This document shows, piece after piece, positions 4,383-7,300 of a stretch of 64,000 bases of DNA. Made by a program: the position numbers and the translations under genes. Numbering within the stretch: position 1 is the first letter of the stretch; each line of letters opens with the position of its first letter. The DNA is from Mugil cephalus (lineage: Eukaryota > Chordata > Actinopteri > Mugiliformes > Mugilidae). The stretch is from assembly GCF_022458985.1 (NCBI RefSeq), contig NC_061788.1:2129826-2193825 (forward strand). Reading direction: 5' to 3'. The notes below the pieces were generated by a model, which saw only the letters and a program-made list of their open reading frames with translations, was not told the origin of the DNA and did no database searches.

Positions 4383-7300
4383 TCACTTCCTGAACTGACC
4401 GATGGGGCCCGGGACCTTGATGTCCTGGCCCCTCTCGAGTCTCTTCTCGCACTCGATCAGGTAGTTGACGCCGTCGACGAGGAGCTGCACCAGCTCCACC
4501 TGAAGCATCGGAGATGGAATTTATTTAGAAACAGAAACACATGCGGTGATATATATATATATATTTACAAACTGATGGATCTTCACCTCAGATTTGCCCA
4601 GACGGTCGTTGTTGGAAATGTCGAAGGTGTCTCCGGTAGCGGCCGTGTCGACGCCGCCGGTGCCGCGCTTCTGCAGCCGCAGGTTGTCGAGGATTTTGGG
4701 GAAACGTGAGTCCTGGGTTTTCAACCATCGGGAACAAAAACGAGTTTAATGAGACGATAAAAATAAAAAGCGAATTCATGTTAATTTGCAAAAGAGTTGC
4801 ACATATTTGCAAAGGATGAAATGTCCTGCTTCAGAGGCCTACGCTGCAGCAACTAAACAAAAAATGTGCAAAAAAAAAAAACATGTCCTGCATAAACAAA
4901 GCAGACTAAAGAGTAAAACATGAGCGTATACGTTAAGTGGCTGGTGCAGCCCCTGAGCTGGATGCTGCCGGTACCTTGCTGAGTTTGGGCAGGCGGACGT
5001 GAACCCCGGCCCTGAGACCGGTGCCCAGGTTGGAGGGGCAGGTCAGGACGTAGCCCAGACGCTCGTTCCACATGAACTCCCAGCCTCGCTCCTGGATCAG
5101 ATGCTCCACCTGCACAGACGAATATCACAACACGGAGCTGTAAAGAAATGCATCAAATACACGAAGAAGAACATCCTGAGACACACGAGTCAAACTCAAG
5201 CTGTTTGTTTGGAGATTAGACAAAACTATTTTAACATAATAGGAGAAAAATAACAAAAATCTGTTGCACCTAAAAGCTAAATAGCCTAGCTTAGCTCAGC
5301 AGAGCAGAAATAGCTACTGTGTTGCTAACACTAGGCTACAGTCATATATTTTAAATTAGCAGCTAAATACATACATAACGCTGCAGCTAAAAATCAGAAA
5401 ACAAATATGAAATGCGTAAAGAAATAAACTTCCAGAGCTAAAAGCTAAATAGCATAAGTTAGCAGATGGTATTAAACTTAACTTATCAACATTTAAACAG
5501 TTGACTTTAATTTAAAACACGTTCTCTGCATTTTTAAAAGCCTTTAAATAAATAAATGAATAAGTCTGGATTGTCGTGTCCTTCCTACTGAACCTGTTTG
5601 AGTCCTCTGCAGAATCTCTCAAACACTCTCTTCATGTTGCCGCCCTTCTCCATGGAGATGACTCTGGTGTGGTCCTCCTCGTTCACCCAGATCAGGAAGG
5701 TCTTCTCGTTGTTGTGCCTGAGGACCAGGACCAGAGTTTACAGCTTGACACGGACTCTGAATGGAAACTAGACACTTGTTTTTATTTTAATCTGTGAATG
5801 AATGAACGCAGCAGCAGCAGCAGACATGCAGGGGGGGGAACCGTACCAGATGCCCCTGGCGTCCGGCCAGTCTCTGGCCATAAAGGCACATGTCAACAGG
5901 GGAGAGACGGGCTTGTCAAACAGGAAGTGGTCCTACAGGGGGGAGGATGGAGGGAGGATGGAGGAAACAGAGGCAGAAAGACTGGACATTAACACAGTTT
6001 ATATCAGGGGTGTCAAACTCGTTTTAGTCCCGGGGAACATTTTATCAACAACCTGACATTTCTTAAGAAAAATAAGTGTAACTTTAGCTCAGCGCTGCTA
6101 TCTGCTGTTTACTGTTCAATACAGTATAAATTAATTACATTATGAATATTACTTTATTATTAATAAGTATTAAATTCATTATTTACAGGTTTCCTACACA
6201 TCTGAAATTTCAAATTTCCAGAATTTTCCAGACACTAATTTCCAGACTTTATTAAAAAATAAATAAATTTAATTTATGGCACTTGAGTAAACAGTTGCCT
6301 ATCATGTAAATAAATTAACTGTTAGTTTTCATTATTCTGAATATATATAATATAAAACGTATAAAATTATATTTTTTTTATTTATTTTTGCACATGAATG
6401 AATGAATCACTGGCATCTTAAACATCAAGTATATATTCAAATAATTTAGTTACTTGTTAAAAAGTCAAATAGAAAAATAAATTAATAAATCATAAATTAA
6501 ACAAATTATAATTATATATATATGTGTATAATTAGAAATATAAAGACATGAATATTTTTCCATACACTAGTTTTAGACCTGGAAATGAATAAAATCAAAT
6601 TCCATGCTTTTGTAGGAACCCTGTGTTTAGTTCTAGGTCTCAGTGTTGTTATGTTGTTAATAATCACTTCTAATCTTCAGCCTTTGTGAATTCATCCCAT
6701 CACGGGCCAGACCGGAGCCTCTGGAGGCCGGGTTTGGCCCGCGGGCCGTAGGTTTGACACCCCTGGTTTAGAGGAAAGGAAACAAGGGTGTGGTGGTTCT
6801 CTGGTTCTCTTCTGGAAGTGGATGTTTCCCCCCTCTCTGGGGGGAGGCGGATGGAGGGGGGAGGAGGAAGGAGGGAGGAGGTGGGAGGAGGCCTTACCAG
6901 ATGCCCCTGGAGTCGGGCCAGTCCCGGGCCATGAAGGCCGAGGTGAGCAGTGGAGACACGGGTTTGTCAAACAGGAAGTGATCCTTAATGTGACGCAGCG
7001 TGGAACGATGAGAGCGGAAAACATCAGCATCTACCAGCTTCATTATACACTTCAATACTACATCTCCCAGAATGCAGCTCACTGGCTTTTCTGGTTAAGT
7101 AGCCGAAGCTAATTTCTCTATTTTCCCCGTTTTTTTTTTTAATTAAAAACACTTGGTGTGGTATTAGATATTATTTTTAACATATTTGTTTCAATTCTGA
7201 TTATTATTGATCAGCACAATAAATAAATAACAATATATTTAATAGCTAATTAGCCATAACATAACAGCAAAAACTACCCCAGCTAAAAGCTAAATAGCCT

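Follow-up and report, generated by a model that had tools for sequence, protein, structure and literature searches.

The alternative exons of PKM, tropomyosin and nebulin are homologous to each other within each pair. In PKM exons 9/10, in tropomyosin and in nebulin exons 143/144, as in the ckmt2a gene described here, the two exons are neighbors, one is taken per mRNA, and a short stretch of the protein is swapped. The PKM and tropomyosin pairs (PMC12487847) and nebulin exons 143/144 (PMC6200726) are presented as mutually exclusive. Unlike these pairs, the ckmt2a pair belongs to the creatine kinase family, owes its exclusivity to the reading frame alone, and is known here from DNA. The diversity of the creatine kinases, a textbook enzyme family, is generally attributed to separate genes.

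The same exon pair can be recognized in the database models named 'Creatine kinase S-type, mitochondrial isoform X1/X2' of cypriniforms, Chanos and Acipenser, which differ from each other only there. The X1/X2 labels are given by automatic annotation, without comment. In these models, the non-Cys exon has Glu-1 and Gly-17 (numbered within the exon), whereas the non-Cys exon of our locus, copy B, has Asp-1 and Phe-17, like the Cys exon, copy A. An earlier note on this DNA had known of no described alternative exon at this position; that statement stands for the publications searched but not for databases, in which the exon is already present as isoforms from 8 species. In the open-access literature, covered mostly by titles and the beginnings of abstracts and with subscription papers mostly outside it, no paper was found that describes such an exon for CKMT2 or another creatine kinase. 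Specifically, ckmt2 is not named in the available main text of two papers on rbfox and mbnl mutant zebrafish (PMC9534849, PMC8246264), and the available parts of PMC9330239, PMC4558960, PMC12487847, PMC11957708, PMC3457962, PMC6503875, PMC6965099 and PMC9658593 contain nothing on an alternative exon of ckmt2; the part of PMC6503875 that was available lists one exon-skip event of human CKMT2, at its exon 1. We conclude that the ckmt2a pair is real, functional by its sequence signs, old, of a known kind, and unremarked in the literature searched.

The window is the whole stretch of Mugil cephalus DNA that was analysed, 64,000 nucleotides long, and holds a complete ckmt2a coding region on the minus strand (9667-4383), with nine exons used per mRNA. 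The exons below are defined by the spliced reading frame, unless another basis is given:

9519..9667, minus strand: coding exon 1, with the ATG
8577..8775, minus strand: coding exon 2
8405..8500, minus strand: coding exon 3, with the weak donor GTTGTA (reading frame and splice-signal comparison)
8115..8336, minus strand: coding exon 4, the constitutive exon upstream of the alternative pair
6898..6983, minus strand: alternative exon copy B, upstream, of the non-Cys type (reading frame and copy comparison)
5847..5932, minus strand: alternative exon copy A, downstream, of the Cys type (reading frame and copy comparison)
5594..5717, minus strand: constitutive coding exon downstream of the alternative pair
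4975..5109, minus strand: coding exon
4587..4712, minus strand: coding exon
4383..4499, minus strand: last coding exon, with the TGA stop

Exon 1 presumably encodes the mitochondrial presequence. The six best relatives of the window gene among solved structures are mitochondrial creatine kinases. A search of the genome (634.8 Mb, 24 contigs) with the exon gave six further matches outside the window, which we assigned by reading their translations to ckmt2b (C8), ckmt1 (C10), two ckb-like genes (C15, C9) and two ckm-like genes (C17, C21). A tree was built from 104 proteins with the alternative exon cut out, by a quick method with SH-aLRT support only and with the species' own ckmt1 as outgroup. 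The 417-aa window protein, a full-length mitochondrial creatine kinase, falls inside the ckmt2a clade of this tree, as CKMT2 should, among percomorph 'mitochondrial 2a' proteins and nearest by path to Acanthopagrus, and the ckmt2b gene falls among percomorph ckmt2b proteins, in a 97% fork that includes Gadus; 33 of the 92 inner branches are drawn open, and the deeper order is unsure. Eight matches on the same strand (20815-16222) to the RasGRF part of P0206, a fused Cricetulus model of which that part served as the query, place a gene that we take to be RASGRF2, the neighbor by which CKMT2 can be recognized, just upstream of ckmt2a. By eye, a minisatellite-like array of CCTAGC/CCCAGCT..AGTAG units (12760-13000) lies between ckmt2a and rasgrf2, and tandem copies of a CCAAGCTCTTCTTCTTTTTCTTCTTCTCGGT-like unit (3210-3460) lie downstream of ckmt2a.

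Copies A and B form one direct-repeat family (103 nt, 82%, spacing 1051), with a gap of 965 nt between the exons. At the positions where the earlier note had placed them, both copies are 86 nt long, preceded by AG and followed by GT, phase 0 in and phase 2 out, and the splicing and translation check bears out its claim that exactly one of them can be used. In particular, the transcript spliced with A or with B alone has a 417-aa open reading frame, while splicing with neither copy gives a frameshift and a stop in the next exon, and splicing with both gives a stop (TGT TGA) within A. Very probably, A and B are functional, mutually exclusive exons that go back to a tandem duplication within ckmt2a, the gene for sarcomeric mitochondrial creatine kinase. 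In the mechanism that we propose, each productive mRNA would take either B or A, giving two 417-aa subunits that in Mugil cephalus would differ only at residues 15 (Ser/Cys) and 25 (Ser/Ala) of the exon, and the frameshifted transcripts with internal premature stops would be expected to undergo nonsense-mediated decay. The choice between A and B is probably regulated by tissue or stage, and use of both exons in Mugil cephalus is predicted from the sequence signs set out below.

The count of differences in the earlier note is confirmed: A and B differ at 14 of 86 bases, with 11 changes in nine synonymous codons and two non-synonymous codons, which are residue 15 (TGT in A, TCG in B; Cys/Ser) and residue 25 (GCC in A, TCC in B; Ala/Ser). 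Random substitution of 14 bases gave two or fewer amino-acid changes in 0 of 100,000 trials, starting from either copy, and this result, together with the cross-species pattern, upholds the view that both copies have been kept by selection. By the NG86 method, the copies have 10.5 silent and 3.5 replacement differences (dS 0.95, dN 0.056, ratio 0.06). Dating of the copies by silent divergence was dropped, because in the comparison with the ckb-like genes dS is only 0.49-0.61, a low value of the kind that codon bias would produce. The random-substitution test is strong for the A/B pair and weaker for B alone: if constraint were lacking only for the changes on a single copy, two or fewer amino-acid changes and no stop would be expected with a probability of 13% for five changes, 1.5% for seven, and 0.02% for ten.

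The weaker test for B bears on the main alternative, which we consider unlikely, namely that the pair is ancestral, that only A is used in Mugil cephalus, and that B is a slowly decaying relic. If only five unconstrained changes fell on B, its few amino-acid changes would be no rare outcome; set against this are its open frame and the two amino-acid differences against 11 silent ones. B could also be redundant, as the species' own ckmt2b already has a non-Cys exon, but B-type exons are used in other percomorph gene models. Ser-25 of B is absent from the other percomorph ckmt2a rows among the matches listed, but it recurs in the E-type exon (with Glu-1) of four catfishes and therefore does not clearly indicate decay. 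Finally, the acceptor of B is weaker than that of A, but the splice sites of both copies look usable by comparison with the consensus.

Specifically, the pyrimidine fraction of the acceptor is 0.88 for A and 0.65 for B, the acceptor of B being AAG, and the donor matches the consensus at 6/9 positions in A (GTACGG) and at 7/9 in B (GTAAGG). The earlier note had described these signals as complementary. The contrast between A and B is real but mild, and other ckmt2a exons are weaker still: the acceptor of exon e8 has a pyrimidine fraction of 0.47, and the donor of exon 3 matches at 4/9 positions. Relative to the other exons of the gene, both donors and the pyrimidine fraction of B are within range, and the acceptor of A is the richest in pyrimidines. 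One motif cluster was found close to the donor of A:

5810..5830, minus strand: TGCATG at +17, then four TGCT at +25 to +37, in the intron after A (motif scan)

We take TGCATG to be an RBFOX site and TGCT to be an MBNL site, both as candidates. The scan found no TGCATG in the other two introns of the splicing event; ckmt2b also has one, in the intron upstream of its single copy of the exon, and 1.4% of 60-nt minus-strand segments contain it. The motifs after A are a lead only and may be due to chance, as several motifs and places were tried. From these motifs we would guess that RBFOX/MBNL-like muscle splicing factors perhaps help A, the copy with the weaker donor. RNA folding of two intron stretches gave nothing beyond shuffles (z 0.70 and 1.70).

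The space between the two exons is largely taken up by one element:

6005..6765, strand not assigned: hAT-like transposon remnant between B and A, 761 nt (terminal repeats)

The remnant has 14-nt perfect terminal inverted repeats (6005-6018 and 6752-6765), and its terminal sequence presumably places it in the hAT family. If the remnant and one 8-nt target duplicate (imperfect, by eye) are subtracted, the spacer between B and A would be ~196 nt, so we do not regard the closeness of the exons as the reason for their exclusivity.

A second copy was sought in the ckmt2 genes of other fishes, as the earlier note had suggested, and the same pair was found there. Among the matches listed, ten pairs of recognized X1/X2 forms of equal length, each pair from a single genome, were compared, from Chanos, Carassius auratus (two genes), C. 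carassius (two genes), Myxocyprinus, Garra, Siphateles, Sinocyclocheilus rhinocerous and Acipenser ruthenus, all of them database gene models rather than curated transcripts. All 10 of these pairs, from 8 species, differ only inside the alternative exon, and in 10/10 these differences include residue 1, which is Glu in one form and Asp in the other, and residue 15, where one form has Cys and the other Ala or Ser. Furthermore, four fused predictions hold both exons (gar P0057, eel P0019, Dallia P0015 and Coregonus P0027), always with the non-Cys exon first, as B precedes A in the window. From its position and its missing Cys, we take copy B to correspond to the E-type exon found in other fishes.

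A wider sample comprised 103 CKMT2 rows, namely the window gene, ckmt2b and 101 named vertebrate rows picked by hand from 222 listed proteins, with unnamed, invertebrate, multi-domain and many near-duplicate rows dropped. Its 108 exon instances have the following combinations at residues 1 and 15: D+C in 54, E+A in 39, E+S in nine, D+S in five, D+A in one, and E+C in none. Among the best 120 matches per search, no percomorph species was seen with both forms of ckmt2a; the ckmt2a models of Phycodurus and Synchiropus have a B-type exon (TSAF) and no second copy. Within the same best 120 matches, characiform ckmt2a has only the E form (7/7 rows), and three clupeid and two Megalops rows have only the Cys form; these single forms reflect either incomplete lists and annotation or the loss of one exon. 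In the protein model P0028 from Neogobius, 16 residues (VTSFITRHVSPHSCCQ) lie between exon 4 and the B-type exon, as if an intron of ~48 nt there were retained.

The recurrence of the pair also bears on whether the second exon mainly shuts the gene down, with joint inclusion or joint skipping yielding unproductive mRNA and less enzyme. Both wrong outcomes do place premature stops in internal exons, but an exon that acted purely as a poison exon would have no need to conserve the protein that it encodes, whereas the copies keep theirs across fishes and have fixed isoform-specific residues in 10/10 pairs, which makes this reading highly improbable. Nothing was found in favor of an artefact of assembly or haplotypes, or of a recent local duplication without function. 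Both can practically be dismissed, as the same pair recurs in the same order in other fishes and the flanks of A and B have in common only ~15 nt downstream of the exon and short C/T-rich stretches (families D1 and D3, which recur after B and before A).

In the stretches fetched for the other six creatine kinase genes of the genome, a six-frame ungapped scan found no second exon copy. The ckmt2b gene has a single non-Cys exon (ETSSG), with no second copy in the 9.9 kb fetched, and is like copy B in lacking the Cys, being its likely counterpart, but unlike ckmt2a in having one copy. Among the matches listed, 13/13 percomorph ckmt2b rows lack Cys-15, including the species' own gene, the one for which DNA was checked; percomorph ckmt2a and ckmt2b seem, from these rows, to have divided the two exon states. 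The four cytosolic genes lack an AG directly before the segment, which continues their upstream frame, so the intron before the segment looks particular to the mitochondrial genes.

Both exon types are present in sturgeon and gar, outside the teleosts, and the duplication thus predates the teleost genome duplication. Within teleosts, both exons of ckmt2a are found in cypriniforms, Coregonus and Dallia; in the clade of Chanos and catfishes, Chanos has both forms and the catfishes have one or the other form per species. The bichir and bowfin rows are of the E type, as is the one coelacanth protein, for which convergence is possible, and amniotes have D+C in 15/15 proteins listed. No shark, lungfish or amphibian rows were noticed among the best 120 matches per protein search, and the age of the pair is accordingly traced no further back than bony fishes. 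The simplest reading is that a single duplication of the exon preceded the divergence of sturgeons from gars and teleosts, and perhaps that of ray-finned from lobe-finned fishes, which would place it before all bony fishes, and that the non-Cys exon was then lost in amniotes. Later sorting would have left both copies in many fishes, the non-Cys exon only in the species' own ckmt2b, and the Cys exon only in amniotes.

Residue 17 hints at a possible exchange between the copies. Phe-17 is present in both A and B, as is Asp-1, and the other six creatine kinase genes of the genome have Gly-17 in their exons; the non-Cys exons of cypriniforms have Glu-1 and Gly-17, and those of Dallia, Coregonus and Aplochiton have Phe-17 but Glu-1. 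Because two bases must change to turn Gly into Phe, gene conversion may account for the step from A to B. The two copies are also closer to each other, with 14 differences, than B is to its likely ckmt2b counterpart, with 21. The Phe-17 common to A and B may reflect gene conversion or parallel change.

Alignment to the chicken enzyme (1crk_A) places exon residues 15, 17 and 25 at positions 199, 201 and 209, and the tryptophan of the WPD motif (Trp-22) at position 206. We assume that Trp206 of chicken mitochondrial creatine kinase is a dimer-interface residue and that Trp223 belongs to the active site. The earlier note had placed the differences next to the catalytic center, which is not confirmed by this alignment. 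Because the WPD tryptophan aligns with the presumed dimer-interface Trp206, an effect of the switch on assembly or stability would be likelier than one on catalysis. An AlphaFold model was set aside (mean pLDDT 60.6, and below 50 across residues 226-243, which make up much of the exon).

A broader scenario, offered tentatively as one possibility, is that the ancestral bony-vertebrate CKMT2 had an either-or exon giving subunits with or without a cysteine beside the dimer interface, and that tissues would in this way tune how the mitochondrial enzyme assembles or responds to redox conditions. The switch would have been kept for more than 300 million years in ray-finned fishes, teleost duplicates would have split its states, the Cys/non-Cys difference would have persisted although the paired exons exchanged sequence (hence Phe-17 in both), and amniotes would have lost the non-Cys exon. 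An either-or exon present since at least the sturgeon/teleost ancestor would mean that a subtle change of Cys to Ala or Ser was worth keeping as a switch. The ckmt2a exon pair offers a clean test of the role of the residue-15 position in an octameric enzyme, and ckmt2a and ckmt2b together offer a natural experiment on how splice forms are shared out among gene copies after a genome duplication.

A separate observation concerns intron 3 of ckmt2a (8337-8404, minus strand), which is 68 nt long and has the weak donor GTTGTA. At this site, 11 of the 16 rows of fish ckmt2a models that were checked have an insert of 20-39 aa that starts with Val and ends with Gln; the insert is absent in four rows, and one is unreadable. 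The inserts look like in-frame intron retention; the 68 nt of the window's intron are not a multiple of three.
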